A DNA stretch of 64,000 nt from Bacteroidia bacterium (GTDB lineage Bacteria; Bacteroidota; Bacteroidia; Flavobacteriales; Flavobacteriaceae): positions 124,001 to 188,000 of the forward strand of contig JAUIMB010000006.1 in the NCBI GenBank assembly GCA_030432635.1, in the 5' to 3' direction. This document shows positions 2,703-38,159 of the stretch, piece after piece. The translations under genes were made by a program, and so were the position numbers. Position 1 is the stretch's first letter; each line of letters begins with the position of its first letter. The notes beneath the pieces are model-generated. The model saw only the letters and a program-made list of their open reading frames with translations, did no database searches and was not told where the DNA came from.

Positions 2703-3497
2703 ATGAAGAGATTATTATTGATTACAGGATTAGTGTTATGCGTCATGGCCACTTCCTGTATTCCACATAAAGATACAATTTACCTGCAAAATAAAAACAC
2801 GGCTCTAGATTCTACTCAAGTTATGGTGGAGCAACATAAGCCCTATCGCATTCAAATCAATGATATTCTGAATATTCGATTAAAGGTTTTAGATCAGGAA
2901 AATGCCACGATTTTCAATCCGGTTGGAGATGTAAACCTAAATGCGTCTAGTGCTGAACGTGCGTATTTTGATGGTTTCACTGTCGATGTTCATGGTAATA
3001 TCAGGATTCCTTCCTTAGGAGAGATTAATGTGTTGGGATATACAACACGAGAAATAGAAGATGCTATAAAGAAAAAATTACTCGAGGAAGAGTTTAAGGA
3101 AACGGCCAATATCTTTGTGACAGTTAAGCTGGCTGGCTTAAGATACACGGCAAGTGGAGAAGTTGGTGGTCCAGGAACTGTGACTTTATTTCAGGATCGG
3201 GTAAATATATTTGAAGCTATTGCTAATGTTGGAGAGATTCCAGTAACTGGAAATAAAAAAGAGGTGCAAATCATAAGACAGTATCCGCAAGGTCAACGGA
3301 TCCACACACTTGATTTGACGGATATTAACGTGATGAAATCACCTTATTACTACATTCAACCTAACGACATAATTTATGTTAAACCTTTACCTCAAAAATC
3401 CCTTGGTACCGGAAAAACTGCAGTAGAAACCCTTCAGACCGTTGCAATGATCGTGTCCATATTGGCCACAACAGTTTTATTATCAACGAGACTTTAG
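2703..3497 (+). CDS. wza: Polysaccharide export outer-membrane lipoprotein (Wza-like)
   Basis: A 264-residue lipoprotein of the polysaccharide biosynthesis/export family, which forms the outer-membrane channel for capsule or exopolysaccharide. The signal peptide ends in a lipobox (MATSC, Cys19). A PES-type domain follows (about 46-150, with DGFTVDVHGNIRIPSLGEI), then an SLBB-like domain (about 150-215). A hydrophobic segment near the C-terminus (about 240-260) may be the outer-membrane-spanning helix. I chose the ATG at 2703 because the lipoprotein signal starts there and the frame extension to 2652 overlaps the promoter. It sits 3 bases before wzc, its usual partner. Confidence 0.88.
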   Translation: MKRLLLITGLVLCVMATSCIPHKDTIYLQNKNTALDSTQVMVEQHKPYRIQINDILNIRLKVLDQENATIFNPVGDVNLNASSAERAYFDGFTVDVHGNIRIPSLGEINVLGYTTREIEDAIKKKLLEEEFKETANIFVTVKLAGLRYTASGEVGGPGTVTLFQDRVNIFEAIANVGEIPVTGNKKEVQIIRQYPQGQRIHTLDLTDINVMKSPYYYIQPNDIIYVKPLPQKSLGTGKTAVETLQTVAMIVSILATTVLLSTRL

Positions 3498-3500
3498 ATT

Positions 3501-5987
3501 ATGGAACAGAGAACACAGGAAGAATTTGATACGGGAGAGTCAGGTCACGTAAGTTTTGACTTTAGGGGTTATTTATTTAAGGTGCTTAACCTTTGGAAGT
3601 TTGTATTGCTGTGTATTGGTACTGCCATGCTCATCGCGTATTTTATCAATGTTAGAAAGCCAAGCGTTTATAAACTAGACTCTCTGATTTCTGTAGAAAA
3701 TGATCAAAATCCTTTTTTTACTGCCAACACAAGTATTTCATTTAATTGGGGAGGTGTGTCAGGTAAGGTGAGTAAAATCATCACCGAGATGAAAACCCGA
3801 ACACATAATGAAAAGGTGGTAGACTCACTTCAGTTTTATATGGAGTATCTAGTTCAGGGTAAGTACAGAAAAGAAGATGTATACAAGCATACACCCTTTA
3901 AGTTTGAAATAGATAAAGCAAAATTACAGGTCTTAAATTCATACATAGGCATTCGTTTTCTAGACAATGATGAATTTGAAGTGTTTACAGAGTATGAGGT
4001 CAGTAATAAAACAGGACAACGTTACCATGATAAAACCAAGTCACCATTGAAGGTGCCAACTGGAGTTTATTCTAAAAAATTCAAAGTTGGGCAAACTATA
4101 GATTTACCGTTTTTCAACGGTCGTATTTTGATAGATCCAAATGTTAAGGTTGGAGCGGGTTCAGAATTTTATATTAGGTTTTTAAATTTTGATTCTGTTG
4201 TTGAGGATTACAGGAATAGGATGATTGTTAATCCATACAATAAAAGTGCTTCGGCAGTGCTACGTTTGCAGTTGGCAGGACATAATAAGGCTAAGATTGT
4301 CGATTATTTGAATGCGACGTCAACTATATTAAGTCGGTCTGAGTTGGAGCGAAAGAACCTATATGCCACCAATACCATAAAGTTTATTGATAGCAGTTTG
4401 GCTGCTGTTGATGATAAACTGAAGGATGTCACTAGTGAAATGAATGACTTCCGAAAAGAGAATAAGGTTTTTGATGTCTCTGAAGGCGTTACACAAATCT
4501 CAGAGGAGTTAAAACAATACGATCAGGCGAAGGAGCAAGAGGAATTAAAACTTAACTACCTTTCAAATCTTGAAAAGTATCTAAACACAAAGACTGACTA
4601 TACCGAAATTGCGGCACCAACGAGTGTAGGGATCCAAGAAACCAACATTTTGGCTAGTGTTTCAAAGATTATAAGTCTTGCTGCTGAACGTCAAAATTTA
4701 GAGTACACAACCAAGGAAGGTTCGGGATTGTTTAAGGAATTAGATAGACGAATGGATTCAGAAGTCAATGTCCTTCTTGAAACTATCGATGCTACAAAAA
4801 AGACCATTGGTATTCAATTATCAGTAATCAACCAAAACATTGCAAGGTTAGAGGCCAAATTATCAGATCTTCCCGAAGATCAACAAGAGTACCTGAAAAT
4901 TCAAAGAAAACTTGAAATAAGTCAGGAAGCTTATGATGTTTATACAGCAAAGCGTGGTGAGGCAGCTATTGTAAAAGCCGCTAATATTTCTGACATTACG
5001 ATCATCGATGAAGCTAAGGACATAGGAGGTGCTTCAGGAAGGATTGGGCCGAATAAGTCACTGAATTACATGATGGCTTTGATGATGGGATTCTTTGTTC
5101 CAATGTTTTTGATATTTGTTTTATTTCTTCTAGATAACACTATTCATGGTTCAGATGAAATAGAACAGCTTTCTAAAATCCCGATCTTGGGCCTAATAGG
5201 TAAATACAATTACAAGAACAATTTAATTGTTTATGAAAAGCCTAAATCTGCAGTTGCAGAATCGTTCAGGTCCATTCGTTCAAGTTTGCAGTTTTTCTAT
5301 AAAAAATTGGGAAACAATGAAGGTAAAACCTTAATGGTGACTTCTTCAGTAAGTGGTGAAGGTAAAACCTTCTGCTCAATAAATATGGCTACAGTTTACG
5401 CTTTGTCAGGTAAAAAGACAATATTATTGGGACTGGATTTAAGAAAACCTAAAATTTTCGGAGATTTCAATATCAATAATGATAAGGGTGTCGTAAATTA
5501 CTTGATTGGTGAAAGTACCTTCGAAGAAGCCAAGTATACTACGCATATTGAGAATTTGGATGTTATACCTTCTGGACCAGTACCACCAAACCCTTCAGAG
5601 TTGTTAATGAGTGATCAAATGCATATTCTGATTAACCAATTAAGGCAGGATTATGATATGATCGTATTAGATACACCTCCTTTAGGGTTAGTTACCGATG
5701 CTTTAGAACTCACACAATATGCAGATGCTACTATTTTTATGGTACGTTTGGATTATACCAAAAAAGGCATGTTATCATTGATAAACGCTAAGTATCGTAA
5801 AGGCGAAGTCAAGAACATTAGCTTTGTCCTTAACTTCTATAAGCATAAAACCAACCATAATTATGGCTATGGCTATGGTTACGGTTATGGCTACGGTTAC
5901 GGTTATGGTGTTTATGGTAATGCTTATCATGAACGTGATAATGACTCAATATTCAAACGAATAAAACGTTTTTTCAGACGTATATAA
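3501..5987 (+). CDS. wzc: Wzc-like polysaccharide co-polymerase and tyrosine autokinase
   Basis: An 828-residue inner-membrane BY-kinase controlling polymer length and export. It has TM1 at about 31-50, a periplasmic Wzz-type region with long coiled coils, and a GNVR-like segment before TM2 at about 522-546. The cytoplasmic kinase domain has Walker A (SGEGKTF, about 616-622), Walker A' (GLDLRKPK) and Walker B (MIVLDTPP, about 720-727). The C-terminus carries the tyrosine cluster that BY-kinases autophosphorylate, here eight Tyr-Gly pairs (788-803) followed by more tyrosines. It lies directly after wza and one base before the next gene, so cotranscription and coupled translation are likely. 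Confidence 0.92.
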   Translation: MEQRTQEEFDTGESGHVSFDFRGYLFKVLNLWKFVLLCIGTAMLIAYFINVRKPSVYKLDSLISVENDQNPFFTANTSISFNWGGVSGKVSKIITEMKTRTHNEKVVDSLQFYMEYLVQGKYRKEDVYKHTPFKFEIDKAKLQVLNSYIGIRFLDNDEFEVFTEYEVSNKTGQRYHDKTKSPLKVPTGVYSKKFKVGQTIDLPFFNGRILIDPNVKVGAGSEFYIRFLNFDSVVEDYRNRMIVNPYNKSASAVLRLQLAGHNKAKIVDYLNATSTILSRSELERKNLYATNTIKFIDSSLAAVDDKLKDVTSEMNDFRKENKVFDVSEGVTQISEELKQYDQAKEQEELKLNYLSNLEKYLNTKTDYTEIAAPTSVGIQETNILASVSKIISLAAERQNLEYTTKEGSGLFKELDRRMDSEVNVLLETIDATKKTIGIQLSVINQNIARLEAKLSDLPEDQQEYLKIQRKLEISQEAYDVYTAKRGEAAIVKAANISDITIIDEAKDIGGASGRIGPNKSLNYMMALMMGFFVPMFLIFVLFLLDNTIHGSDEIEQLSKIPILGLIGKYNYKNNLIVYEKPKSAVAESFRSIRSSLQFFYKKLGNNEGKTLMVTSSVSGEGKTFCSINMATVYALSGKKTILLGLDLRKPKIFGDFNINNDKGVVNYLIGESTFEEAKYTTHIENLDVIPSGPVPPNPSELLMSDQMHILINQLRQDYDMIVLDTPPLGLVTDALELTQYADATIFMVRLDYTKKGMLSLINAKYRKGEVKNISFVLNFYKHKTNHNYGYGYGYGYGYGYGYGVYGNAYHERDNDSIFKRIKRFFRRI
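5862..5909 (+). repeat. Tandem 6-bp coding repeat, eight Tyr-Gly pairs in Wzc
   Basis: Eight in-frame copies of TAY-GGY encode alternating Tyr-Gly at residues 788-803 of the Wzc-like kinase. Third-position variation (TAT/TAC, GGC/GGT) shows the units are not freshly duplicated. Gain or loss of a unit would keep the frame and only change the number of phosphorylatable tyrosines. Confidence 0.85.
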
Positions 5988-5988: not shown

Positions 5989-6573
5989 GTGATTAGCCAA
6001 AAACAACTTATTGCCAAACGTATATTTGATGTATTATTATCAGTGATACTTGTACCTTTAGCATTTATCCCAATCCTAGTGCTAGTGTTGATATCAACCA
6101 TAGATACAAAGTCGTTTGGAATATTTACCCAGAGACGTGTAGGGCAACATGGAAAGTTGTTTCAGATTTTCAAGTTGAGAACATTGCGCAATGAAACACA
6201 TAATTTGGGACATCTCGATAAAAGTGCGACACAGTTTGGAAAGTTCCTCAGGCGAACGAAGTTGGATGAATTACCACAGCTCTTCAATGTGTTAATTGGT
6301 GATATGAGTTTTGTTGGTCCAAGACCAGATGTTCAGGGTTTTGCTGATGAACTCACCGGAGACGATAGGATCGTGTTAAGAGTTAAGCCAGGCATCACTG
6401 GACCAGCAACGTTAAAATATAAGGACGAAGAGATACTTTTATCGCAACAGTCTGACCCTGAAACTTACAACAGAACGATTATTTGGGTAGATAAAGTTGA
6501 AATCAACAAAAAATATGTGCAGAATTGGAGTTTTTGCTTAGATTTGAGCTTTATTTCTAAATCTATAATTTAA
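5989..6573 (+). CDS. Short phosphoglycosyltransferase (PglC/bacterial sugar transferase type)
   Basis: A 194-residue monotopic phosphoglycosyltransferase that moves a sugar-1-phosphate from a UDP-sugar to undecaprenyl phosphate, the first step of repeat-unit assembly. One N-terminal hydrophobic segment (about 11-35) acts as a re-entrant membrane helix. Then come FTQRRVGQHGKLF, the KLRT strand, and FLRRTKLDELPQLFNVL with the Asp-Glu catalytic pair, then GDMSFVGPRPD. The start is GTG, one base after the wzc stop, with no better in-frame ATG. Its length matches the PglC catalytic core without the extra N-terminal helices of the WcaJ-like enzyme at 36759-38159. Confidence 0.88.
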   Translation: MISQKQLIAKRIFDVLLSVILVPLAFIPILVLVLISTIDTKSFGIFTQRRVGQHGKLFQIFKLRTLRNETHNLGHLDKSATQFGKFLRRTKLDELPQLFNVLIGDMSFVGPRPDVQGFADELTGDDRIVLRVKPGITGPATLKYKDEEILLSQQSDPETYNRTIIWVDKVEINKKYVQNWSFCLDLSFISKSII

Positions 6574-6579: not shown

Positions 6580-7872
6580 ATGAATAGCAATAAGAAAATT
6601 ACCATATTGGGTCTTGGATATGTTGGCTTGCCTTTGGCTGTTGAGTTTGCCAAGAAATTTATGGTTATTGGGTTTGATATCAATGAAAAACGAATTGAAG
6701 AATTAAGAGGAGGCGTTGATAAAACCCTTGAAGTCGAGGATGATCACTTAAAATCTGTATTGGCTTCTAATGCTTCAGAAGACAAAGGTTTGTTTATCAC
6801 AAATGATCTGAACGATATTCAGGATTCCAATATCTATATTGTCACAGTGCCAACACCTACTGATGAGCTTAAGCGACCGGTATTTACGCCATTGATTAAA
6901 GCAAGTGAAAGTGTTGGGAAAGTACTTAGCCAAGGTGATATAGTCATTTATGAATCCACCGTTTATCCTGGTGTGACCGAAGATATTTGTGTTCCTATTT
7001 TGGAGGAGCAATCTGGATTAAAATTCAATAGGGATTTTTACGCAGGATATTCTCCAGAACGCATCAATCCAGGAGATAAAAAACATACTGTAACTAAAAT
7101 TCTAAAGGTAACTTCAGGATCTACTCCCGAAATCGCCAAGGTCGTTGACGATTTGTATAAATCCATTATTGTGGCTGGTACACATTCTGCACCTTCCATA
7201 AAAGTCGCAGAGGCTGCTAAGGTGATTGAGAACTCACAACGTGATATCAATATAGCCTTTGTAAATGAATTGTCTAAGATATTTAGGTTGTTGGATATAG
7301 ATACCAAGGCTGTATTGGAAGCTGCAGGTACAAAATGGAACTTCATTAAATTTTCGCCAGGATTGGTAGGAGGCCATTGTATTGGTGTTGATCCTTACTA
7401 TTTAGCGCAAAAGGCTATTGAGTCTGGATATAATCCAGAGATTATTCTTGCAGGTAGAAAGATGAATGATAGTATGGGAGCTTATGTTGCCCAAGAGACT
7501 GTTAAGATGATGATTAAGAAAGGGGCAAGAATTAAGGATTCCAATGCCCTTGTTCTAGGAATCACATTTAAGGAAAACTGTCCAGATATAAGAAACTCCA
7601 GAGTTATTGATATCATTGAAGAATTTGAAACATACGGTGTTAATGTTGATGTCTATGACCCTTGGGCTTCTAAGGATGAAGTGAGACATGAATATGGGTT
7701 TGAACTATTAGATAGTCAATCGCAATTAAAGCAGGATTACGATGCCATAGTGTTAGCGGTATCCCATAACGAATTCTTGCAATTGAACCTTGAAGATTTA
7801 AAATCAGATATTGGAGTGATATTTGACGTAAAGTCATTACTTCCAAAACAAAATGTAGACGCCAGATTATAA
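6580..7872 (+). CDS. Nucleotide-sugar 6-dehydrogenase (TviB/WbpA type)
   Basis: A 430-residue enzyme of the UDP-sugar dehydrogenase family, which oxidises C6 of a UDP-hexose or UDP-N-acetylhexosamine to the uronic acid with NAD+. The NAD-binding motif GLGYVGLPLAVEF is at 11-23 and the catalytic cysteine is C267 in GGHCIGVDPYY. The C-terminal domain has TFKENCPDIRNS, typical of the TviB/WecC branch acting on UDP-GlcNAc or UDP-ManNAc. The neighbouring TviC-like epimerase makes UDP-GlcNAc the best guess for substrate, giving UDP-GlcNAcA. The gene overlaps the epimerase by one base (TAATG), which suggests coupled translation. Confidence 0.87.
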   Translation: MNSNKKITILGLGYVGLPLAVEFAKKFMVIGFDINEKRIEELRGGVDKTLEVEDDHLKSVLASNASEDKGLFITNDLNDIQDSNIYIVTVPTPTDELKRPVFTPLIKASESVGKVLSQGDIVIYESTVYPGVTEDICVPILEEQSGLKFNRDFYAGYSPERINPGDKKHTVTKILKVTSGSTPEIAKVVDDLYKSIIVAGTHSAPSIKVAEAAKVIENSQRDINIAFVNELSKIFRLLDIDTKAVLEAAGTKWNFIKFSPGLVGGHCIGVDPYYLAQKAIESGYNPEIILAGRKMNDSMGAYVAQETVKMMIKKGARIKDSNALVLGITFKENCPDIRNSRVIDIIEEFETYGVNVDVYDPWASKDEVRHEYGFELLDSQSQLKQDYDAIVLAVSHNEFLQLNLEDLKSDIGVIFDVKSLLPKQNVDARL

Positions 7873-8852
7873 TGTACGAACACAAATACCACGATCTAGA
7901 TTTAAGTCAGTTATCATTTTTGGTAACAGGTGGAGGCGGATTTATAGGCTCTAACATCGTAGAATATCTTTTAAAGTATAATGCAAAACGGGTTAGGGTA
8001 TTAGATAACTTTTCTAACGGTCATAGAAAAAACCTTGATGAGTTTCTCGACAATCCTGCATTTGAACTGATAGAAGGAGATATAAGGGATTTACAAACAT
8101 GTATAGATGCTGTTAAAGACATGGATTACGTGTCGCATCAAGCAGCTTTAGGTTCTGTGCCGCGCTCAATAAATGATCCTGCAACAACCAATGCAGTTAA
8201 TATTTCTGGTTTCTTGAATATGATGATTGCTGTCAAGGATTCTGAAACTGTTAAACGCATGGTATATGCGGCTTCAAGTTCTACTTATGGAGATAGTAAA
8301 GTGCTTCCTAAGGTAGAAGAGAATATAGGCAAACCATTATCTCCTTATGCCATCACAAAATATGTCAATGAGCTTTATGCTGACGTTTTTGGAAAAACAT
8401 ACAATACCGATGTTATTGGGCTAAGGTATTTTAACGTATTTGGGCCAAAACAAAGTCCTGATGGTGCATATGCAGCGGTCATACCATTGTTTATGCAGGC
8501 ATTAAAGGATAACAAATCGCCTAAAATTAACGGAGACGGAGAGCAAACACGAGACTTTACTTTTGTAGATAACGCAGTACAAGCTAATATCCGCGGTTTT
8601 TTCGCTTCAGAAAAAGCAAAGAACCAGGTCATCAATGTTGCATGTGGCGAACGAATTAGTATTAATTATTTATGGGATTCGTTAAAATCCTCTGCAGATT
8701 CAGATGTTGAGGCTATATATGGACCAACAAGACAAGGCGATGTAAGGGATTCTTTAGCTAATATTTCAAAAGCAGAGGAATTAATAGGATATAAACCTCA
8801 ATTTACTGTTAAAGAAGGTCTTAAGGTTACTTGGGACTATTTCAAACAATAG
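7872..8852 (+). CDS. UDP-N-acetylhexosamine(uronate) 4-epimerase (TviC/WbpP type)
   Basis: A 326-residue extended short-chain dehydrogenase. It has the glycine-rich NAD motif GGGGFIGSN (about 20-28), SSSTYGDS and the catalytic Tyr159-xxx-Lys163 in YAITKYVNE. The segment HQAALGSVPRSINDPATTN is characteristic of WbpP/TviC epimerases that prefer N-acetylated UDP sugars and their uronic acids. With the preceding dehydrogenase it would give UDP-GalNAcA, as in Vi antigen and Pseudomonas O6 pathways. Substrate is inferred; the fold and epimerase class are clear. Confidence 0.87.
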   Translation: MYEHKYHDLDLSQLSFLVTGGGGFIGSNIVEYLLKYNAKRVRVLDNFSNGHRKNLDEFLDNPAFELIEGDIRDLQTCIDAVKDMDYVSHQAALGSVPRSINDPATTNAVNISGFLNMMIAVKDSETVKRMVYAASSSTYGDSKVLPKVEENIGKPLSPYAITKYVNELYADVFGKTYNTDVIGLRYFNVFGPKQSPDGAYAAVIPLFMQALKDNKSPKINGDGEQTRDFTFVDNAVQANIRGFFASEKAKNQVINVACGERISINYLWDSLKSSADSDVEAIYGPTRQGDVRDSLANISKAEELIGYKPQFTVKEGLKVTWDYFKQ

Positions 8853-8925: not shown

Positions 8926-9792
8926 TTGAACACCAAGCACAAGGACGAATGGCTTTATACTATTTCTTCTAAGCGGAAATTAATAGATTTTAATTTCAAA
9001 GAGATTTGGCGTTACAAGGATTTGTTGTTTCTGTTCGTAAAGCGAGACATAGTCACAGTTTATAAGCAAACGGTTCTCGGACCGTTATGGTATTTGATAC
9101 AACCATTGTTTACTTCAGTTATTTTTACCTTGGTTTTTAACAACTTAGGTAATATAGGGACTGGTGGTGTGCCTCCGTTTTTATTCAATTTGGCTGGGAT
9201 AACAGCATGGAACTATTTTAAGGAATGCCTCACAAAAACCTCTAGTACATTTACGACAAACAAAGGGATTTTTGGAAAAGTATATTTCCCCAGAGTGGTC
9301 ATGCCTTTATCAATTACAATATCCAACTTATTAAAGTTTGGTATTCAACTAGGTATCTTTTTAGGGTTTTACTGTTTCTATTTCTTTCAAGGAACGGAAG
9401 CGAACATGAATCAGCATATGCTTTTATTCCCAGTTTACGTATTGATGATGGCATTACTTGGTTTGGGCTTAGGAATGATTATTTCCGCATTGACAACAAA
9501 GTATAGGGATCTTTCAATTCTAGTAGGTTTTGCGGTACAATTGTTAATGTATCTCTCTGCGGTACCTTATCCTATCTCTGAGGCTAGAGAAAAATTCCCA
9601 TCAAAAGTAGCACTGATTGTTGAATATAATCCTCTTACGCAAATTACAGAAGGATTTCGCTATATGTTTCTTGATACAGGTACCTTTACTTGGTTTGGGT
9701 TTTTCTATACTTTAATAATCAGTATAGCATTGTTTTTAATTGGTTTGGTTATATTTAACAGAACTGAAAAATCTTTCATAGATACGGTATAA
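8926..9792 (+). CDS. wzm: ABC-2 type polysaccharide/O-antigen exporter permease (Wzm-like)
   Basis: A 288-residue inner-membrane protein with about six hydrophobic segments. Its N-terminal part (RYKDLLFLFVKRDIVTVYKQ, then TVLGPLWYLIQPL) is the standard opening of ABC-2 polysaccharide permeases. The middle (VYFPRVVMPLS) and end (YNPLTQITEGFRYMFL) also match. It pairs with the ATPase six bases downstream to move a lipid-linked glycan across the inner membrane. The start is TTG at 8926, because an in-frame TAG lies nine bases upstream and no ATG precedes the conserved start. Confidence 0.9.
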   Translation: MNTKHKDEWLYTISSKRKLIDFNFKEIWRYKDLLFLFVKRDIVTVYKQTVLGPLWYLIQPLFTSVIFTLVFNNLGNIGTGGVPPFLFNLAGITAWNYFKECLTKTSSTFTTNKGIFGKVYFPRVVMPLSITISNLLKFGIQLGIFLGFYCFYFFQGTEANMNQHMLLFPVYVLMMALLGLGLGMIISALTTKYRDLSILVGFAVQLLMYLSAVPYPISEAREKFPSKVALIVEYNPLTQITEGFRYMFLDTGTFTWFGFFYTLIISIALFLIGLVIFNRTEKSFIDTV

Positions 9793-9797: not shown

Positions 9798-11039
9798 ATG
9801 AATAATATTATCCTCAAAGTTGAAAACATAAGCAAACAATATCGTTTGGGTCTTGTTGGAACAGGAACGATAAGCCATGATTTGAATCGTTGGTGGCATC
9901 GTGTTCGAGGTAAAGAGGATCCTTTTTTAAAGGTAGGTGCAGTCAATGATAGAAGTGCCGCGACCAAAGAGAACTATGTATGGGCTTTAAGGGATATAAA
10001 CTTTGAAGTGCAACAAGGTGAGGTTTTGGGAATTATTGGGAAAAATGGAGCTGGTAAATCAACCTTATTAAAAATCTTATCAAAAGTCACTAGTCCAACT
10101 ACAGGAGAAATTAAGACCAAAGGTAGAATTGCGTCATTGTTGGAGGTTGGTACAGGTTTTCATCCAGAATTAACAGGAAAGGAAAACATTTATCTCAATG
10201 GTGCTATTTTGGGTATGACCAAAGCCGAAATAAAACAGAAGGAACAAGAAATTGTTGAGTTTTCGGGATGCCAAATGTACATAGATACACCTGTGAAACG
10301 CTATTCCTCTGGAATGCGAGTGCGGTTGGCTTTTGCCGTTGCAGCATTTTTGGAGCCAGATATTTTGGTTGTGGATGAGGTATTGGCTGTCGGTGATGCA
10401 GAGTTCCAGAAGAAAGCCATAGGAAAAATGAAGGATATTAGTAGAGGAGATGGAAGAACAGTGCTATTTGTGAGCCATGATATGGGAGCCATTCAGAGTT
10501 TATGTGACAGATTGATCGTTCTGAAAAATGGATATGTGGATTTTTCCGGAGATATTCCTGGAGGGATCAATCATTACTTAAAAATTAGCGAATTGGGAAG
10601 CAGCATGAATTATGCCAATGTAGCAACCGATTTCGGTATTGAAAAAGTAACTTTTTTAGATAAGGATAGACAAGAAGTTAACTCGGTAATGGTTGGACAA
10701 AAGCTAGTGATAAGGGTAGATTATAAGAATTTTGATAAACGTAATCTATCATTGTCAATTGGTTTCTTAGATAACTTTTCGAATTTTAAGTTTGCATGCA
10801 GAAGTGATGTGTTGGATGTGACCTATAAAGATAATATAGGTGTGGCTTACATGACGATTGACAAATGGCCATTGAGTGAAGGCTCATACCATTATAACTT
10901 AGCTGTACATGAAAGCTCAGTAATGCTTCAAAATATTAAGGAAGCAGGAAGCTTTAGGGTGGAAAAAGGAGATTTTTATGGTACTGGTAAATTACCGGGA
11001 AAAAGAGGATCTTTTTATATAGAATATCAATGGGAATAG
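9798..11039 (+). CDS. wzt: ABC exporter ATPase with C-terminal glycan-binding domain (Wzt-like)
   Basis: A 413-residue ATPase. Walker A GKNGAGKST is at about 81-89, signature YSSGMRVRLAF at about 168, and Walker B ILVVDEVLAVGD at about 188-199. After residue 270 there is a separate beta-rich domain of about 140 residues like Wzt_C, which in E. coli O9a/O8 Wzt recognises the modified end of the finished polysaccharide. Such a domain suggests the exported glycan carries a terminal cap or modification. It follows the permease directly, and the next gene begins one base after its stop. Confidence 0.9.
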   Translation: MNNIILKVENISKQYRLGLVGTGTISHDLNRWWHRVRGKEDPFLKVGAVNDRSAATKENYVWALRDINFEVQQGEVLGIIGKNGAGKSTLLKILSKVTSPTTGEIKTKGRIASLLEVGTGFHPELTGKENIYLNGAILGMTKAEIKQKEQEIVEFSGCQMYIDTPVKRYSSGMRVRLAFAVAAFLEPDILVVDEVLAVGDAEFQKKAIGKMKDISRGDGRTVLFVSHDMGAIQSLCDRLIVLKNGYVDFSGDIPGGINHYLKISELGSSMNYANVATDFGIEKVTFLDKDRQEVNSVMVGQKLVIRVDYKNFDKRNLSLSIGFLDNFSNFKFACRSDVLDVTYKDNIGVAYMTIDKWPLSEGSYHYNLAVHESSVMLQNIKEAGSFRVEKGDFYGTGKLPGKRGSFYIEYQWE

Positions 11040-26870: not shown

Positions 26871-26912
26871 AACAATTGCAGTCACCCATTGGAAACAAAA
26901 ACCACCTCAATT

Positions 26913-28839: not shown

Positions 28840-29673
28840 ATGAATTTAAAAAAAACCATAAGTGCACTGTCTAATGTTTTTAGAAGAGATACATTGAAAT
28901 TTGAAGATGCTTATTTATGTGGCGTGCCTTTAAAGGTGATAAAACAAACCATTCGAAAAAACCCAGACCAAGATGATGCTTGGTGGTTCTACCTAGCCAA
29001 ACACCATGATATTATCTTTGATGTTGGATGTAATGTTGGTTATACAGCCTTATTGGCTTTGATCCAAGATGCCAACAAGAAAATGGTACTTGTTGATCCT
29101 AACCCTAATGCACTACAAAAAGCTGCTGTTAATATCATATCCAACGGATTAGGAAGTAGAACCCAGTATATTGCGGCTTTTGTGGGTGACAAAATAGATG
29201 AGACGATAAAGTTTTATACCATTGGTTCAGGTGCTGCTGGTAGTATGTATGCTTCCCATGCCGAATCTGCTGCTTCGATTAATTCATGTATGGATGTCAA
29301 AACAGTCACATTAGATTATTTATACGAATTATATGGTATGAAGCCAGAATTGATAAAGATTGATGTAGAAGGAGCTGAAACATTGGTCATGGAATCTGCA
29401 AAGGTAATTGCCAAAGAATCCCAATGTAGCTTTTTTATTGAAATGCATACTGTTGAAAACCTTGGTATGGAAGGAGCTGCACAATTAATGTTGGATTGGT
29501 GCCAAGATGTAGGGTACAATGCTTGGTATCTCAAGTTAGGGGAGAAATTGGTAGAAGCTTCAACAGTCAAGCACAGAGGAAAATGCCATTTGTTGTTGTT
29601 GCCAAAGGAAAAGAGTTATCCTGAGTACTTAAAGGGTGTCGCTCAAAATAATCCGCTTCCAAATTCGATTTGA
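28840..29673 (+). CDS. FkbM family methyltransferase
   Basis: A 277-residue FkbM-type enzyme and the second of its kind in the locus. Motif I is DIIFDVGCNVGYTALLAL, followed by MVLVDPNP, and the hallmark is ELIKIDVEGAETLVM. It ends four bases into the next glycosyltransferase gene. Likely a sugar O-methyltransferase; the acceptor is unknown. Confidence 0.85.
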   Translation: MNLKKTISALSNVFRRDTLKFEDAYLCGVPLKVIKQTIRKNPDQDDAWWFYLAKHHDIIFDVGCNVGYTALLALIQDANKKMVLVDPNPNALQKAAVNIISNGLGSRTQYIAAFVGDKIDETIKFYTIGSGAAGSMYASHAESAASINSCMDVKTVTLDYLYELYGMKPELIKIDVEGAETLVMESAKVIAKESQCSFFIEMHTVENLGMEGAAQLMLDWCQDVGYNAWYLKLGEKLVEASTVKHRGKCHLLLLPKEKSYPEYLKGVAQNNPLPNSI

Positions 29674-30995: not shown

Positions 30996-32101
30996 CCAAA
31001 ACAGAACAGCATATCATCATTGTAACGTCTGAGTTTCCACCACAACCTGGAGGTATCGGAAATCATGCTTACAACTTGGCATTGTATTTAAGTAAAGCTG
31101 GATATATGGTTACGGTCATTGCAGACCAAAGATCAGAGTCTGGCAATGAAGAGGAAGAGTTCGATGCGTCATTACCTTTTTTGGTAAGCCGGATAAAACG
31201 CTATAATTGGAGGTTTAGAATGTATGTTGACAGAATCCTGAAAACTTTCAAAAACTTCAAAAAGGATGCGGTCGTCATTGCTACTGGTAAATTCTCGTTA
31301 TGGAATGTAGCAAGCTGTAGTCTTTTCTACAGAAATAAGACACTTGCGGTTGTTCATGGTAGTGAAGTAAACTTCAAATCAACACTGTTAAAAAAATCCA
31401 TCGATATTTCACTTAAACGTATGGATCATATTATTTCGGTCTCTAATTTCACCAAAAATTTTATATCTCATTTAGGAAGAGAAATCCATGTGATTCCAAA
31501 TGGTATTGATATTACGAAATGGAAAATGGATGATTGCGATGCGATAAAGATTAAAGGTATTCCCTCTTTGACTACTGTAGGTCGTGTCAGTTCAAGAAAA
31601 GGACAGCTTAATGTTATTCGACACTTGCCACACTTGATAAAACAATTTCCAAAGTTGCATTACCATTGTATTGGGATACCAACTGAGGCCGAAGCATTTG
31701 CCAATACGGCAAGAACCCTTGGTGTTTCAGAGTTTATTACGTTCCACGGAAGTATTTCAGATGATAACTTAAAAAAACATCTAAACGAAACGGATATCTT
31801 TGTGATGTTGAGTTCAGAAACTGAAACAGGTGATGTGGAAGGATTTGGCATCGCTATTTTAGAAGCTAATTCATTGGGTGTTCCAGCTATTGGGAGTAAA
31901 GGGTGTGGTATTGAAGATGCTATAGATAACCATAATTCTGGGATTTTAATTGACGCTAATGATACAGAAGGATTCATTAATGCCATTGAACACATATTGG
32001 TTGAAAAGGAACGTTATAAGGAAGCCTCTAAATCTTGGGCTATACAACATTCTTGGAATGTTATCATTGAGCGGTATATTAATATAATTGATGCTTTATG
32101 A
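30992..32101 (+). CDS. Family 4 glycosyltransferase
   Basis: A 369-residue GT-B enzyme. It has the classic opening TSEFPPQPGGIGNHAYNLA, IPNGIDITKW at the domain boundary, and GDVEGFGIAILEANSLGVPA with the paired glutamates. Translation appears to start at a TTG overlapping the previous stop (TTGA). The next gene's ATG overlaps its own stop (ATGA). This keeps a chain of four-base overlaps from 29670 to 33228. Confidence 0.87.
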   Translation: MTKTEQHIIIVTSEFPPQPGGIGNHAYNLALYLSKAGYMVTVIADQRSESGNEEEEFDASLPFLVSRIKRYNWRFRMYVDRILKTFKNFKKDAVVIATGKFSLWNVASCSLFYRNKTLAVVHGSEVNFKSTLLKKSIDISLKRMDHIISVSNFTKNFISHLGREIHVIPNGIDITKWKMDDCDAIKIKGIPSLTTVGRVSSRKGQLNVIRHLPHLIKQFPKLHYHCIGIPTEAEAFANTARTLGVSEFITFHGSISDDNLKKHLNETDIFVMLSSETETGDVEGFGIAILEANSLGVPAIGSKGCGIEDAIDNHNSGILIDANDTEGFINAIEHILVEKERYKEASKSWAIQHSWNVIIERYINIIDAL

Positions 32102-33228
32102 AACTTGCCATTATCTCACATACCGAACATTATAAAAGCAGCACAGGAGAAGTTGTAGGTTGGGGTCCAACAATAAGCGAGATCAATCACTTGATTGAAG
32201 AGTTTGATACGATTTATCATATCGCAATGCTGCATGATGAGCCACCACCATCAAGTGCGTTACCTTATACATCTGAAAGAATTAAGTTTGTGGCTTTACC
32301 GCCTTCAGGAGGACAGACAGTTGGAAGTAAGTTGCGTACCATAAAATTGGCACCAAAAATTATTTCAACAGTAAGGCAAACGTTAAAACAGGTTGATTTT
32401 TTTCAACTGCGTACACCCACTGGTATTGGCGTATATTTAATTCCCTATTTGACCTTTTTTTGCAAAAAGAAAGGATGGTATAAATATGCTGGAAACTGGA
32501 ATCAGAAAAATCCACCTCTTGGATACAGGTTGCAGCGTTCAATGTTAAAAAAGCAATCAAGAAAGGTAACCATAAATGGGCATTGGAAAAATCAGCCTAA
32601 ACAATGCTATTCTTTTGAAAATCCGTGTTTGACACTAAAAGACGTTGAAGAAGGACAAAAGGTTAGGCAAGCTAAGGAGGTGTCTGGACGACTTCAATTC
32701 TGTTATGTTGGTAGATTGGAAAAACCAAAAGGTGTAGAGCGCATTATAAAGGCTTTTAAGTTATTGTCATCAGAACAAAAACAACGTGTTGAGTGCGTCC
32801 ATTTGGTTGGTGATGGATCAGAATATGAATATTTCAATACCTTGGCGCAAACGACTGGTGTCCCTTTTATCTTTCACGGTTTTTTGCCTCGAAGGCAAGT
32901 GTTTTCGATTTATGAAAAAAGCCATGTATTTGTGATGCCTACAACAGCATCAGAAGGGTTTCCAAAGGTCATTGCCGAAGCCATGAATTTTGGGTGTTTA
33001 CCCATTGTCTCTAATATTTCCTCTATTGGACATTATATCAATCAAGACCAAAATGGGTATGTTTTAGAAGAAGTGACTTCCGAGGCATTATGTGTAGAAC
33101 TAATAAAAGTACTCAGCCTTAAAATGAATGCGTATCGGCAAATGATGAACAATCAAGATGAGTTGTTGAATAAATTTACGTTTTCTTATTATAACAATAG
33201 AATTATAAATGAAATATTAAACCTATAA
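32098..33228 (+). CDS. Family 4 glycosyltransferase
   Basis: A 376-residue GT-B enzyme. The donor domain has CYVGRLEKPKGVERIIKAF and ASEGFPKVIAEAMNFGCLPI. The acceptor domain is less typical and begins KLAIISHTEHYKSSTGEVV. It is the last gene of the overlapping block and is followed by a 262-base structured gap. Confidence 0.84.
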   Translation: MKLAIISHTEHYKSSTGEVVGWGPTISEINHLIEEFDTIYHIAMLHDEPPPSSALPYTSERIKFVALPPSGGQTVGSKLRTIKLAPKIISTVRQTLKQVDFFQLRTPTGIGVYLIPYLTFFCKKKGWYKYAGNWNQKNPPLGYRLQRSMLKKQSRKVTINGHWKNQPKQCYSFENPCLTLKDVEEGQKVRQAKEVSGRLQFCYVGRLEKPKGVERIIKAFKLLSSEQKQRVECVHLVGDGSEYEYFNTLAQTTGVPFIFHGFLPRRQVFSIYEKSHVFVMPTTASEGFPKVIAEAMNFGCLPIVSNISSIGHYINQDQNGYVLEEVTSEALCVELIKVLSLKMNAYRQMMNNQDELLNKFTFSYYNNRIINEILNL

Positions 33229-33490: not shown

Positions 33491-34300
33491 ATGAATTTTA
33501 AAAAATTACGTTGGACAGTTAAACGACATCCGTTCTTGTATATTGCTCGTTTTAAGCTGTTGTCTAAAAATTCTACTGTAGATGATATTGATGGATTTAC
33601 ATATAACAGTGTAAATAAGAAAAAGGATATTCCTGCTTATTTCCATAAAATCAATGAACTGATTTTCAAAGACGGAAAACCAGAGGATGAAATTGAAATC
33701 GTGAAACAAATCACAAAGTGGATGAGTGACAATATTAAGGGAGGAAGAGGTTTGAGTGAGCCTTCTGAAAAAGCCCTTAGAATGATGATTTCCGGTCAAG
33801 GTGGTGTTTGTAGTGATATGGTTCAGGTTTTTAATAATTTTTGTGTTATTAATGATGTTGAGGTAAGAGAATGGGGAGTGACCCGTGCTCCTTTTAATAC
33901 TACTTTTGGTGGGCATTCTTTCAACGAAGTGTTTAGTGAAAAACTGAATAAATGGGTGCTCATAGATGTGTCTGCAAGCATAATGTTCTATCTAAAACAT
34001 AATGAAGAACCACTTTCCGTAGTTGAATTGTACCAATTACTGAGGTCAGGAAAAGAAGTAGAGTTTAGGTCTTTTAATGAAGATCACATCATCTCTAAAC
34101 CTAATGTAGAGAATAATTATTTTTATCCTGATATAGTTCCTTTTTTAGTCTGTAATTATTCAAATAAAACCTATGACTTCTTCCTGAAGTATTCTAGGCC
34201 TTATATTCCAGTTTTTATATCGCACTTTTTAGCATTTGTTTTACGCAGAAGTTATTATTATAAGTTTCCTTTGGATAATTATAAGGGTATTTTCGCTTAG
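33491..34300 (+). CDS. Transglutaminase-like cysteine protein
   Basis: A 269-residue protein with the transglutaminase-like core. Cys107 lies in GQGGVCSDMVQVF, His142 in GGHSFNEVF and Asp159 in WVLIDVSAS, giving the expected order and spacing of the Cys-His-Asp triad. No signal peptide is visible and the C-terminal hydrophobic stretch (PVFISHFLAFVL) is short. Members of this superfamily cut or form amide bonds. In a locus making uronic acids and amides it could attach or remove an amine or amino acid on the glycan, but that is inference. It stands alone between two larger gaps, so it may have its own promoter. Confidence 0.75.
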   Translation: MNFKKLRWTVKRHPFLYIARFKLLSKNSTVDDIDGFTYNSVNKKKDIPAYFHKINELIFKDGKPEDEIEIVKQITKWMSDNIKGGRGLSEPSEKALRMMISGQGGVCSDMVQVFNNFCVINDVEVREWGVTRAPFNTTFGGHSFNEVFSEKLNKWVLIDVSASIMFYLKHNEEPLSVVELYQLLRSGKEVEFRSFNEDHIISKPNVENNYFYPDIVPFLVCNYSNKTYDFFLKYSRPYIPVFISHFLAFVLRRSYYYKFPLDNYKGIFA

Positions 34301-34374: not shown

Positions 34375-35739
34375 TTGAAGTATAATATCACATATGCGAC
34401 CGCTGTTGCTCTACATTTCATGATAGGCATGGCGATCTATTTTGTCAAGGATTTGGCAAAAATATATTTCTTTGTCGCATTGTTGGTGTTTCTATTCCGT
34501 ATTTTTAAGAGCCCTAGTGAGCTAAAAACGTACGAAGTCCTCAAGGCTTGTGCATATTTTGTTGGTGCTGAGGTGTTGTTGCGGATGACGAGAGGTGCAA
34601 TATCCTATGAAGCGGGAAAATATGTGGTTATCCTTTTTTCGTTGATTGGTATGATATATAAAGGGATTTCGGGTAAAGGTTATCCTTATTTCGTTTACCT
34701 GATGCTGCTTATACCTTCTATTTTTGTGGCTTCTACAACATTAAGTTTCGATGCTAACTTTAGAACCAATATCGCTTTTGTATTGAGTGGTCCTGTTTGT
34801 TTAGGAATTGCCACATTATATTGCTATGATAAAAAAATAACACTTAAACAGTTGCATAATGTTCTCCTGTTAATGTTATTGCCTATAATAGCCCACACTA
34901 CCTATGTTTTTTTCTATACGCCTAGTATTAGGGATACATTGTCAAATACGGCATCTAACTTGGCCGCTTCAGGTGGTTTTGGCCCAAATCAAGTTTCTAT
35001 GATATTAGGGCTTGGTGCATTTATTGTAGCCACTCGTTTTTTTACACAATCATCATCCGTAAATTTAAAGGTGCTTAACCTTATTATCTTGGCACTCATT
35101 TCGTATAGAGCAGTGCTCACATTTAGTAGAGGTGGTGTCATTACGGCTTTCGCAGTCATACTTACATTTTTATATTTTTATTATGCACAAAGCTCGAGGG
35201 CCCAAAAGAATTCGATTATGTTTTCCTGTATGGTGCTTTTAGGATGCTTTATGATAACATGGTTTATTAGCTCTAGTCAAACTGATGGATACATTGATTT
35301 GAGATATGCCAATAAAGATCATTTGGGTAGGGATAAGGAAGATTTAACAACAGGTAGAGGAGATTTGTTTATGTATGAGATTAAAGGTTTTATTTCCAAT
35401 CCATTTTTAGGAATAGGTTCGAGTAGGGCAAAGGATCAACGAATCGAGGTGGAAGGCCATGGAAATATTTCTCACAGTGAAGTTGGTCGATTACTTGGAG
35501 AACATGGTATTTTTGGAATCATCATTTTACTTATTCTAACGATCAAGCCTTTAGATTTTCGACATAGGCGAAAAAACAACTATTATTTTTATCCTTTTTT
35601 GGTCTTTTGGTTTCTTACCGTAAATCATGCCTCAATGCGAATCGCAGCACCATCATTTGTGTATGCTTTAGCACTTTTAAATGTAACCCATGAAAAGAAT
35701 CCTGTACATAGGAAACAAATTAGAAAAGAAGAACAGTAA
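34375..35739 (+). CDS. O-antigen polymerase/ligase family membrane protein (Wzy or WaaL-like)
   Basis: A 454-residue membrane protein with roughly ten hydrophobic segments. The large periplasmic loop contains TTGRGDLF, NPFLGIGSSRA and ISHSEVGRLLGEHG, the Wzy_C/O-antigen ligase pattern. It either polymerises repeat units or ligates the finished chain to an acceptor. Sequence alone does not separate the two. The start is TTG at 34375 and the end overlaps the next gene by 50 bases. Confidence 0.83.
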   Translation: MKYNITYATAVALHFMIGMAIYFVKDLAKIYFFVALLVFLFRIFKSPSELKTYEVLKACAYFVGAEVLLRMTRGAISYEAGKYVVILFSLIGMIYKGISGKGYPYFVYLMLLIPSIFVASTTLSFDANFRTNIAFVLSGPVCLGIATLYCYDKKITLKQLHNVLLLMLLPIIAHTTYVFFYTPSIRDTLSNTASNLAASGGFGPNQVSMILGLGAFIVATRFFTQSSSVNLKVLNLIILALISYRAVLTFSRGGVITAFAVILTFLYFYYAQSSRAQKNSIMFSCMVLLGCFMITWFISSSQTDGYIDLRYANKDHLGRDKEDLTTGRGDLFMYEIKGFISNPFLGIGSSRAKDQRIEVEGHGNISHSEVGRLLGEHGIFGIIILLILTIKPLDFRHRRKNNYYFYPFLVFWFLTVNHASMRIAAPSFVYALALLNVTHEKNPVHRKQIRKEEQ

Positions 35740-36712
35740 CGTTTCCTATATTAGTGTTTTAGGGAGATTACTGGAAAATCAGGGATACATTGTTCACTAT
35801 GCATCTAGTTATCACAATAAGCTTTATCGTGCATTACATATGATTTATAAGTTATGTCGATTACGTAAAAAGGTAGATGTCGTTTTGATCGATACCTATA
35901 GCACCCAAAACTTCTATTATGCCTTAATCATTAGTCAACTCTGCAGAGTGTTTAAACTGAAATATATTCCAATTTTACATGGAGGGAATTTACCATCAAG
36001 ATTGGCATCCAATCCCAAAATGAGTAACATGGTATTCAAGCATGCAACTTATAATGTTTCACCTTCGGAATATTTAAAGAATACCTTTGAAGAATTTGGG
36101 TTTAATAATGTTACATACATCCCTAATACCATAGAAATCGAAAATTACCAACAACAAAAGAGAGATTTCAATACTCCGAAGCTCTTGTGGGTGCGATCAT
36201 TTTCCAAAATTTATAATCCGAAGATGGCAATCAAGGTGTTTGAGTCGATTAAGGCACTTTATCCTAATGCCGAGCTGTGTATGGTAGGACCTGATAGTGA
36301 TGGTACGTTATTGGAAACAAAAGAGTTAGCACAATACCTGAACCTTAATGTGAGTTTTACAGGTAAGCTTACAAAGGACGAATGGATAGCACTTTCTATT
36401 CAGTATAATATATTTATAAACACAACCAACTTTGATAATACGCCTTTGAGTGTTATTGAAGCTATGGCACTAGGCTTACCTATTGTTTCCACCAATGTAG
36501 GAGGTATGCCTTATTTGGTGGAGCACAATAGAGATGGCTTTTTGGTCTCGCCCAATCAAGTCGGTGAAATGACCAAGGCCATTTGCCATATCATGGAGCA
36601 TCCAGAGAATAGGGAAAATATGATAAGGAAGGCTCGATCTAAAGTGGAGCAATTCGATTGGATAAATGTAAAAACATTATGGACAGAGATATTAGAGCAA
36701 GATAATTCATAG
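35690..36712 (+). CDS. Family 4 glycosyltransferase
   Basis: A 340-residue GT-B enzyme. It starts MKRILYIGNKLEKKNSNVS and has IPILHGGNLPSRL, YIPNTIEIENY and FDNTPLSVIEAMALGLPIVS. The start codon lies within the polymerase gene, giving an unusually long 50-base overlap in another frame, but the family similarity begins at this ATG. It is the last classical glycosyltransferase before the closing phosphoglycosyltransferase. Confidence 0.87.
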   Translation: MKRILYIGNKLEKKNSNVSYISVLGRLLENQGYIVHYASSYHNKLYRALHMIYKLCRLRKKVDVVLIDTYSTQNFYYALIISQLCRVFKLKYIPILHGGNLPSRLASNPKMSNMVFKHATYNVSPSEYLKNTFEEFGFNNVTYIPNTIEIENYQQQKRDFNTPKLLWVRSFSKIYNPKMAIKVFESIKALYPNAELCMVGPDSDGTLLETKELAQYLNLNVSFTGKLTKDEWIALSIQYNIFINTTNFDNTPLSVIEAMALGLPIVSTNVGGMPYLVEHNRDGFLVSPNQVGEMTKAICHIMEHPENRENMIRKARSKVEQFDWINVKTLWTEILEQDNS

Positions 36713-36758
36713 AATTTAACATAACTTTATATATTTACAGCAACCGATGTTTTTCTGA

Positions 36759-38159
36759 ATGGCACATAAGAAAAAAGACATACATTTTGAGGTATCCGAA
36801 CGGAAGATTCTTTTACGTATTCTCGATATCGTAATGGTAATCACGGGTTTGTATGTTCTGCAAATGAGTATTCCTGATTACGATTATCTAATTATCAGTA
36901 GTACCAATACTGTTCAAATCTTAGTACTAATGTGTTACATCGCTATTTTCGGGTCTATCTTTGAAATTTATGACCTTAGGCAGTCCAGTAAGCTTGATGT
37001 AACCTTCAAGAATATCGTATTAACGGCTTCGACAACAGTTTTATTTTATCTTTTTACTCCTGTATTGACGCCTTTTTTACCTGAACAACGTCTACAAATC
37101 CTATACTTCTTTTTAACTCTCGTTATAGCTATTTTTATGTGGCGATGGGCCTATGTGACTTTTATATCGGTTCCTAGGTTCCATAAGAAAGTGTTGGTGG
37201 TTGGCGAAATTTCAAATATTGAAAGTATTGTTAAACCACTGAATCAATCAGACCCTTATTATAAAATAATTGGATTTATAAACTCTGAACCAGATGCCCA
37301 ATCGTTAGTTAAGTTCAAGGGACTCAAAGAATTCCGTCCTGATGAACTATTGGATATCGTCAAAAAGGAAAAGATATCTGAAGTTTTGGTGGCGAGCTAT
37401 GATTCTGAAAACATTGCACCGCAAGTCTATCACGACTTGATCTATTTGTTAGACCAAGGATTTTCCATTCGTGAATATACTCAGGTGTACGAAGAGGTCA
37501 CAAGCCGTGTGCCTATTCAGTTTGTCGGTAAGGAGTTTTACAGGTACTTTCCGTTTAGTAGAAGTAATCAAAACACAGTATATTTATTCTTTCAACGAAC
37601 GTTCGATATTGTTTTTTCTATTATTGGATTGCTTTTTTGCTTGATTATCTTGCCGTTTGTTGCCTTCGGAAATGCGATTGCCAATAAAGGGCCTTTATTT
37701 TACACTCAAGATCGGGTAGGTAGAAATGGGAAGCTTTTCAAGATTGTTAAGCTTCGTAGTATGGTTGTAAATGCCGAAAAAGGAGGTGCGAAATGGGCAG
37801 AGAAAAATGATGTTAGGATTACCACATTTGGAAAATTCTTAAGGCGAACTCGATTGGATGAAGTGCCACAGTTTTTCAATGTGCTCGTTGGTGAGATGAG
37901 CATAATTGGTCCTCGTCCAGAACGCCCATTTTTTGTTAATGAACTCGCAAAAGTCATCCCTTTTTATGAGACACGTCATATCATCAAACCAGGTCTTACA
38001 GGATGGGCTCAGGTAAAAACACAATATGGTGCATCAGTCGATGAAAGTCTGATTAAGCTGCAGTACGATTTATACTACATCAAACATCGCAGTGTTTTTT
38101 TAGATCTCAATATTATTGTAAAAACCTTGAGTACTATTCTCTATTACAGAGGACAATAA
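36759..38159 (+). CDS. Long polyprenyl-phosphate glycosylphosphotransferase (WcaJ-like)
   Basis: A 466-residue initiating enzyme. Four N-terminal membrane helices (within about 15-145) lead to a CoA-binding-like Rossmann region with KVLVVGEIS. The catalytic domain has an extra hydrophobic segment at about 280-305, then FYTQDRVGRNGKLFKIVKLR, LRRTRLDEVPQFFNVL with the Asp-Glu pair, and MSIIGPRPERP. It transfers a sugar-1-phosphate to undecaprenyl phosphate. This is the second such enzyme of the locus, after the short one at 5989-6573. The frame ends with YYRGQ, typical for the family. Confidence 0.9.
   Translation: MAHKKKDIHFEVSERKILLRILDIVMVITGLYVLQMSIPDYDYLIISSTNTVQILVLMCYIAIFGSIFEIYDLRQSSKLDVTFKNIVLTASTTVLFYLFTPVLTPFLPEQRLQILYFFLTLVIAIFMWRWAYVTFISVPRFHKKVLVVGEISNIESIVKPLNQSDPYYKIIGFINSEPDAQSLVKFKGLKEFRPDELLDIVKKEKISEVLVASYDSENIAPQVYHDLIYLLDQGFSIREYTQVYEEVTSRVPIQFVGKEFYRYFPFSRSNQNTVYLFFQRTFDIVFSIIGLLFCLIILPFVAFGNAIANKGPLFYTQDRVGRNGKLFKIVKLRSMVVNAEKGGAKWAEKNDVRITTFGKFLRRTRLDEVPQFFNVLVGEMSIIGPRPERPFFVNELAKVIPFYETRHIIKPGLTGWAQVKTQYGASVDESLIKLQYDLYYIKHRSVFLDLNIIVKTLSTILYYRGQ

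Follow-up and report, generated by a model that had tools for sequence, protein, structure and literature searches.

The stretch of DNA analysed here (hereafter the window) comprises 64,000 nucleotides of a Bacteroidia bacterium of the family Flavobacteriaceae (GenBank assembly GCA_030432635.1, contig JAUIMB010000006.1, positions 124,001 to 188,000), from a genome of 3.5 Mb that is 99.9% complete. It contains a single unbroken run of 30 consecutive plus-strand genes, from 2652 to 38159 when short overlapping open reading frames (ORFs) of the opposite strand are set aside, and the Pfam content of these genes supports a polysaccharide biosynthesis locus. Both the unbroken run and its function had been proposed in an initial annotation, which described the product as a sulfated, amidated acidic polysaccharide. 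Long minus-strand genes bound the run (an ABC-F gene at 695-2557 and lnt at 38209-39801), and base composition shows no contrast, with a guanine plus cytosine content of 0.357 in the locus and 0.361 in the window. The gene counts of the initial annotation also proved right by Pfam: eleven glycosyltransferases (four GT2, six of GT1/GT4 type, and one exostosin/GT47), three sulfotransferase domains, two FkbM methyltransferases, to which a third methyltransferase of another family (28036-28791) can be added, and three asparagine-synthetase-like proteins (PF00733), only two of which have a glutaminase domain (the protein at 15325-16707 is without it). Two initiating sugar-phosphate transferases come on top of the 11 glycosyltransferases. 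The uronate genes located at 6580-8852 were likewise correctly placed, being more exactly an N-acetylhexosamine (HexNAc)-uronate pair. Additional to the earlier list are Wza, Wzc, Wzm/Wzt, a Wzy-like protein, the acyltransferase part of a fusion protein, and a transglutaminase-like protein. Position 2703 is an in-frame methionine codon opening a lipoprotein-like signal within the Wza gene. The genes are as follows.

2652-3497, plus strand: Wza-type outer-membrane polysaccharide export lipoprotein, likely start 2703 (PF02563, 53.3 bits)
3501-5987, plus strand: Wzc-type chain-length/tyrosine autokinase (PF13614, PF13807; TIGR01007, 162.8 bits, over cut-off)
5989-6573, plus strand: short initiating sugar-phosphate transferase, Bac_transf (PF02397, 161 bits)
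6580-7872, plus strand: UDP-HexNAc 6-dehydrogenase, TviB-like (NF011729 TviB, 556.7 bits)
7872-8852, plus strand: C4-epimerase of UDP-HexNAc or its uronate (HexNAcA), WbpP/TviC-like (1sb8; NF011728 TviC, 324.7 bits)
8926-9792, plus strand: Wzm, ABC-2 permease (PF01061, 66 bits)
9798-11039, plus strand: Wzt, ABC ATPase with Wzt_C carbohydrate-binding domain (PF00005; PF14524, 30.9 bits, cut-off 30.4)
11041-12414, plus strand: fusion of a hexapeptide acyltransferase and a sulfotransferase (PF00132; PF13469, 37.7 bits)
12411-13367, plus strand: GT2 glycosyltransferase (PF00535)
13402-15249, plus strand: AsnB1, WbpS-like amidotransferase (PF00733, PF13537; best NCBIfam model TIGR03108)
15325-16707, plus strand: asparagine-synthetase-like protein without glutaminase domain, SGGLDS present (PF00733 only, 36.9 bits)
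16711-18567, plus strand: AsnB2, WbpS-like amidotransferase (PF00733, PF13522; TIGR01536, 388.6 bits; TIGR03108, 382.4 bits)
18510-19676, plus strand: GT4-type glycosyltransferase (PF00534)
19663-20664, plus strand: GT2 glycosyltransferase (PF00535)
20785-21462, plus strand: sulfotransferase 2 (ST2), variant motif GFPHCGT (PF00685, 25.8 bits, cut-off 22; own profile E 2.7e-14)
21538-22341, plus strand: FkbM methyltransferase (PF05050)
22401-23189, plus strand: GT2 glycosyltransferase (PF00535)
23262-24245, plus strand: sulfotransferase 3 (ST3), GFWRSGT, R166/S174 (PF00685, PF13469; own profile E 2.9e-16)
24512-25687, plus strand: GT4-type glycosyltransferase (PF00534)
25677-26870, plus strand: GT4-type glycosyltransferase (PF00534)
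26889-27962, plus strand: exostosin-family GT47 glycosyltransferase (PF03016, 37.8 bits, cut-off 33.4)
28036-28791, plus strand: S-adenosylmethionine methyltransferase (PF13489, PF08241)
28840-29673, plus strand: FkbM methyltransferase (PF05050)
29670-30995, plus strand: GT2 glycosyltransferase (PF00535)
30992-32101, plus strand: GT4-type glycosyltransferase (PF00534)
32098-33228, plus strand: GT4-type glycosyltransferase (PF00534)
33491-34300, plus strand: putative transglutaminase-like protein (PF01841, 26.5 bits)
34375-35739, plus strand: Wzy polymerase or O-antigen-ligase-like membrane protein (PF04932, 57.4 bits)
35690-36712, plus strand: GT4-type glycosyltransferase (PF00534; relatives of 52-53% in genomes G196 and G207)
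36759-38159, plus strand: long initiating sugar-phosphate transferase, WcaJ-like (PF02397, 212 bits; TIGR03025, 345.7 bits, over cut-off)

The Pfam matches of the three sulfotransferase domains have weak to modest scores: the sulfotransferase part of the fusion is over the cut-off for PF13469, ST3 is over those of both PF00685 and PF13469, and ST2 is over that of PF00685 and 1 bit below that of PF13469. Whole-genome scans at E ≤ 0.001 retrieved only the fusion and one gene on contig C5 with PF13469, and only ST3 and the same C5 gene with PF00685. A sulfotransferase profile of our own, which is not independent of Pfam because its seeds were 30 ORFs taken from under PF13469 matches in related genomes, picked out exactly three of the 61 window ORFs, namely the fusion, ST2, and ST3 (E 3e-14 to 3e-16), while 600 shuffled copies gave no match. 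All three domains retain a glycine, an arginine, and a serine that occur in 97%, 100%, and 93% of the seeds, respectively, and we take these residues to belong to the site for 3'-phosphoadenosine-5'-phosphosulfate (PAPS). The motif itself varies, reading HCGT in ST2 and RSGS and RSGT in the other two; in the fusion, GTGRSGS is found at 218, with R312 and S320 as the conserved residues. Relatives of the fusion were found at 51% over almost the full length in G196, twice at about 30% in G007, and as a longer protein of 610 residues in G207, and a scan of genome contigs for named relatives gave four, all aligned to the hexapeptide half. Among solved structures, ST3 had no match up to E 10, ST2 had three chance matches only (best E 0.27), and the best 60 of the 132 matches of the fusion were all within its acyltransferase half, while single-sequence structure predictions were of low confidence (mean predicted local distance difference test of 35.9 for the fusion and 35.4 for ST3).

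The genome has one good adenosine-5'-phosphosulfate (APS) kinase (CysC, E 4.5e-68) and a second, marginal match (20.9 bits). The PAPS synthesis genes CysC, CysD, and CysN are present on contig C20, in a run with a CysQ-like phosphatase, a DUF2061 membrane protein, and an MBOAT acyltransferase. This operon sits in another polysaccharide locus and not in that of the window, adjoining genes which, from reading their sequences, are presumably Gmd-, Fcl-, and Rml-like. The association between APS kinase and sulfotransferases was followed in 79 near-complete genomes of the same family, from 77 genera, hand-picked from 299 and mostly in handle order. The sample includes G007, G196, and G207, in which fusion relatives were already known, and all genomes other than G075 matched the fusion in some part, in most cases the hexapeptide half. 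Counting an APS kinase as true at E under 1e-40, sulfotransferases (PF13469) were present in 44 of the 51 genomes with CysC vs. none of the 28 without it (Fisher 3.6e-15, a value to be taken only as a guide because the sampled genomes are related); without G000, G007, G196, and G207 the figures become 41 of 47 and 0 of 28. The genomes with CysC and no PF13469 match were G018, G030, G032, G071, G076, G100, and G207. Finding sulfotransferases only together with APS kinase is the pattern expected of PAPS-dependent enzymes, and it supports the sulfation reading. G207 has its APS kinase inside the homologous locus and G084 some 8 kb upstream of wzt; in G007 the gene belongs to a locus of similar type, next to TviB/TviC-like genes and fusion relatives. 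The sulfation put forward in the initial annotation is thus supported by the conserved residues of the sulfotransferase fold and by this strict link, the product itself being still deduced from the genes.

Some further observations concern the sulfotransferases and the C20 operon. In G045, of the same genus, an 844-residue protein (L168:2468-5002) has a sulfotransferase-like C-terminal part (GLPRSGTS), preceded by what we take to be a phosphodiesterase-like N-terminal part and then TPR-like repeats, and PF13469 matches to open frames of 843-879 residues were listed for 13 of the 79 genomes. On contig C5, positions 8001-48000 (L045/L046) hold another sugar locus, which includes a sulfotransferase, an asparagine-synthetase-like gene, and distant relatives of Wza and Wzc. 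The DUF2061 protein of C20 (PF09834, L044:8489-8944) lies between cysC and the cysQ-like gene, and a relative of it is beside cysC in 18 of the 19 examined stretches where cysC was found; a helper role in sulfation is possible. Two proposals were dropped: the label Wzx for L044:1236-2537, for which Pfam gave no family, and the idea that an APS-type CysH leaves CysC dedicated to sulfation, suggested by a CC/CxxC motif, since the best NCBIfam model of that protein is phosphoadenylyl-sulfate reductase.

As for the acidic sugar, the dehydrogenase (6580-7872) scores 556.7 bits against TviB (NF011729, cut-off 592) and only 113.8 against the UDP-glucose dehydrogenase TuaD. The best solved relatives of the epimerase (7872-8852) are WbpP (1sb8, E 3e-101) and WbgU, and it reaches 324.7 bits with the TviC model NF011728, below the cut-off of 760. 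Such a TviB/WbpP-like pair argues for UDP-N-acetylgalactosaminuronate (UDP-GalNAcA) and not glucuronate, and the acid product is probably N-acetylgalactosaminuronate. TIGR03108 is the best NCBIfam model for AsnB1 (359 bits) and the second best for AsnB2 (382.4 bits), both being under its cut-off of 816.9. The features of uronamide synthases are present: the glutaminase Cys2, the ATP-binding SGG motif (SGGIDS in AsnB1), and HexNAc-uronate genes alongside. According to a paper on P. gingivalis (PMC7468200), WbpS and WbqG are members of the TIGR03108 family and WbqG is required for the amidation of GalNAcA. From this role and the TIGR03108 likeness it is fair to infer an amide, with AsnB1 and AsnB2 acting like WbpS/WbqG, without claiming membership of that family; it is on this resemblance (PMC7468200) that the amidation proposed in the initial annotation finds its support. 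The glutaminase-less protein (15325-16707) has relatives of 48-57% in G097, G045, and G207.

With Wzt as query, 56 of the 79 genomes gave a match at E ≤ 1e-60, from which 47 places in 46 genomes were kept (E 4.5e-128 or better) and 14 weaker ones left out. The kept homologues (window excluded) have 53-81% identity and align over 260 to 413 of 413 residues, some of the alignments leaving out the C-terminal domain. Around 44 of these loci we read stretches of up to 20 kb (some 8 kb ahead of wzt and 12 kb past it, with two cut short by contig ends), with longer ones for the window and G196 and 20 kb for G207; because the stretches are short, the counts of traits are lower bounds. Sulfotransferases matching our profile appear in 20 of the 47 loci, that is, in 20 of 30 from genomes with CysC and 0 of 17 from genomes without it (18 of 27 vs. 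0 of 17 when the window, G196, and G207 are removed; Fisher 5e-6). TviB plus TviC (50% or more) were present in 13 of the 30 and 2 of the 17, and asparagine-synthetase-like genes in 7 and 1, respectively. Leaving out again the window, G196, and G207, a sulfotransferase accompanies the uronate pair in 10 of 14 loci vs. 8 of the 30 lacking the pair. A search of genomes for loci with the same set of domains had been suggested in the initial annotation. The export locus was found in 46 of 79 genomes, and the full combination of uronate pair, sulfotransferase, and asparagine-synthetase-like gene in no more than four of the 47 loci, namely those of the window, G045, G073, and G097, the last having only the glutaminase-less type. 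A Wzy-like gene on the same strand follows wzt at 14-32 kb in 39 of the 47. The eight exceptions are G025 and G096 (no Wzy match), a second Wzt locus in G013, and five with Wzy distant or on another contig. Judging from these genes, the locus is a conserved frame with a variable middle, like O-antigen and capsule loci. Exostosin-family (GT47) glycosyltransferases are mostly an animal and plant family; the one at 26889-27962 has a 40% relative within the G207 locus.

The export genes combine elements of two routes. Wzm/Wzt with a C-terminal carbohydrate domain is the hallmark of the ABC route, which is also recognized by the absence of Wzy, but here a Wzy_C protein, possibly a ligase, is encoded at 34375-35739. 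Components of the Wzx/Wzy route (Wzy, Wzc, Wza, and an initiating transferase) are present as well, and a search confined to the 30 locus proteins gave no Wzx flippase Pfam family among them. Either the Wzy_C protein would be the ligase of an ABC route, or a Wzy route would have Wzm/Wzt as its flippase. Of the 17 loci with a same-strand sulfotransferase downstream of wzt, nine (window and G196 included) have it as the next listed ORF, a position that would fit a coupling of this modification to the Wzt_C domain.

The explanation that we favour, and consider probable though far from certain, is that the locus builds and exports one complex acidic surface heteropolysaccharide, either a lipopolysaccharide (LPS) O-chain or a capsule, carrying sulfate and uronamide. 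UDP-N-acetylglucosamine would be oxidised and C4-epimerised to UDP-GalNAcA by the TviB/WbpP-like pair, and part of the GalNAcA would be converted to the uronamide by the WbpS-like AsnB enzymes. An initiating transferase would place the first sugar on undecaprenyl phosphate, the eleven glycosyltransferases would lengthen the glycan, the three sulfotransferases would add sulfate with PAPS from the cysC-cysD-cysN operon of C20, and methyl and acyl decorations would also be added. The lipid-linked glycan would then cross the inner membrane through Wzm/Wzt, which might sense a modification via Wzt_C; the Wzy-like protein would polymerise or ligate the glycan, and Wzc and Wza would bring it to the surface.

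Several points weigh against this explanation. The product is known here from its genes alone, from which its chemistry and its nature as LPS or capsule are inferred. The cys operon is located on C20, away from the locus, and the extra C5 sulfotransferase could account for it; CysC may also serve assimilation, as a CysH-type reductase is encoded in the genome. ST2, with its variant motif, is absent from both whole-genome scans (PF13469 and PF00685 at E ≤ 0.001). AsnB1 and AsnB2 are far under the TIGR03108 cut-off, yet over the general asparagine-synthase cut-off. Ten of the 30 loci from genomes with CysC, that of G207 among them, have no profile sulfotransferase, partly because usually only some 12 kb after wzt were read; in G096 and G068, PF13469 matches lie further on than the stretch read. 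Finally, we know of no textbook route in which an ABC exporter is combined with Wzy.

Sulfotransferases of the PF00685 and PF13469 families act on many substrates, and the three enzymes could instead modify another acceptor (a lipid, a glycoprotein glycan, or a small molecule), leaving the main polymer unsulfated. One more clear sulfotransferase is indeed found in another sugar locus, on C5. However, all three are embedded in the run of glycosyltransferase genes, the 20 homologous export loci with sulfotransferases (window included) extend to other genera, and in nine of the 17 with one downstream of wzt on the same strand it is the next listed ORF, which makes this alternative unlikely. We regard as equally unlikely that the locus is a composite that makes an O-chain exported by the ABC transporter and, separately, an exopolysaccharide polymerised by Wzy: two initiating transferases, an ABC exporter, Wzy, Wza, and Wzc do share one locus, but no Wzx family is found among its 30 proteins, and the persistence of Wzt together with the Wzy-like gene in 39 of 47 loci suggests one machine.

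Beyond the locus come lnt, PorV2 (39896-40987; NF052325, putatively involved in type IX sorting), lptB, tatC, a kdsD/kpsF-like gene, and then recQ, an order mostly retained in G196 and G207 (lnt was not found in G207). At the other side, the ABC-F gene appears in 22 of 44 stretches read, many of which may end short of its position. The nearby LPS genes make linkage to LPS slightly more likely than a free capsule. The polysaccharide could also be a counterpart of the anionic lipopolysaccharide (A-LPS) of Porphyromonas, a uronamide anchor for type IX secreted proteins attached by the sortase PorU. The genome encodes PorU (1360 bits). PorV2 neighbours the locus, and its distance beyond the Wzy-like gene is 3.6-4.7 kb in 33 of the 40 genomes with both genes; lptB and kdsD-like genes are close by as well. 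In P. gingivalis, the linker of the type IX secretion system is described as a uronamide whose amide depends on WbpS (PMC7468200, PMC13086638), and wbpS is reported to cluster with wzy (PMC8003790). Against this, a search limited to the 30 locus genes gave no WbpB/E/D or VimA/E, asparagine-synthetase-like genes occur in just 8 of 47 loci, P. gingivalis W50 reportedly uses Wzx/Wzy without key enzymes of the ABC route (PMC8003790), and the synteny with PorV2 may reflect ordinary housekeeping order. We consider such a counterpart rather unlikely. More improbable still is the wider proposal of a distinct family-wide route in which Wzm/Wzt would flip lipid-linked units in place of Wzx, Wzt_C would check a modification encoded by the neighbouring gene (here the acyltransferase-sulfotransferase fusion), Wzy would polymerise, and the sulfated uronamide product would anchor type IX proteins, as a counterpart of A-LPS. 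Least credible is a product that is an ordinary acidic O-antigen, the sulfotransferase-like folds having degenerated or relying on a different donor, as the weak Pfam scores and the variant ST2 motif might suggest, given that all three domains retain the conserved arginine and serine and that none of the 28 genomes lacking APS kinase has a sulfotransferase match.

A sulfated surface glycan, as favoured here, can be compared with a few described systems. The sulfated capsule locus of Vibrio sp. KMM 8419 (PMC11641403) is alike in its ABC transporter, glycosyltransferases, sulfotransferases, and PAPS genes and in an acylated and sulfated product. It differs in that its structure has been solved (Rha3S4Ac-Glc, with no uronate and no amide), whereas ours is deduced, in a Kps-type ABC system for which wzy is reported absent, and in having cysNDC inside the cluster, whereas in the window genome the cys genes are on another contig. 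The WbpS/WbqG synthases of P. aeruginosa, E. coli O121, and P. gingivalis (PGN_1234), as presented in PMC7468200, are also TIGR03108 relatives and AsnB-like proteins whose genes adjoin HexNAc-uronate genes of a surface polysaccharide locus, but the window has two copies plus a third protein without the glutaminase domain, and scores under the family cut-off. Pontiella sulfatireligans, a marine bacterium, has a cluster for a glycosaminoglycan-like exopolymer with a sulfotransferase amid GT2/GT4 genes, and a sulfated polymer was detected (PMC7356697); it belongs to a different phylum, and the available description names no ABC exporter or uronate pair. The sulfated capsule of Cobetia marina KMM 1449 (PMC11766843) and the synechan of Synechocystis (PMC8205485) are bacterial sulfated polysaccharides whose biosynthesis genes are discussed as well. 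Closer at hand, the O-polysaccharide locus of Flavobacterium psychrophilum (PMC5601056, PMC6519341), probably of the same family, also makes a surface polysaccharide with Wzy; there, a flippase is named in a figure legend, sulfate is not named as a component in the text available from these sources, and wzm, wzt, and ABC go unmentioned in that of PMC6519341.

As far as the literature goes, the initial annotation was right to say that such loci are seldom described: a review of 2024 gives sulfated polysaccharide production as reported for six bacterial genera (PMC11625862). Genomes show no such rarity, as 44 of the 79 sampled have sulfotransferases and 46 have the homologous export locus. Among the papers listed by our search of the open-access literature, subscription papers being outside its scope, none dealt with a sulfated glycan locus of Flavobacteriaceae. 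The members of this family are major degraders of sulfated algal sugars. If the favoured explanation is true, many of them would produce their own sulfated acidic surface glycans by means of a conserved locus on the chromosome. What has been reported for a handful of genera would then be a common trait, with many sulfotransferases to test, and the combination of ABC export with Wzy would raise a mechanistic question.

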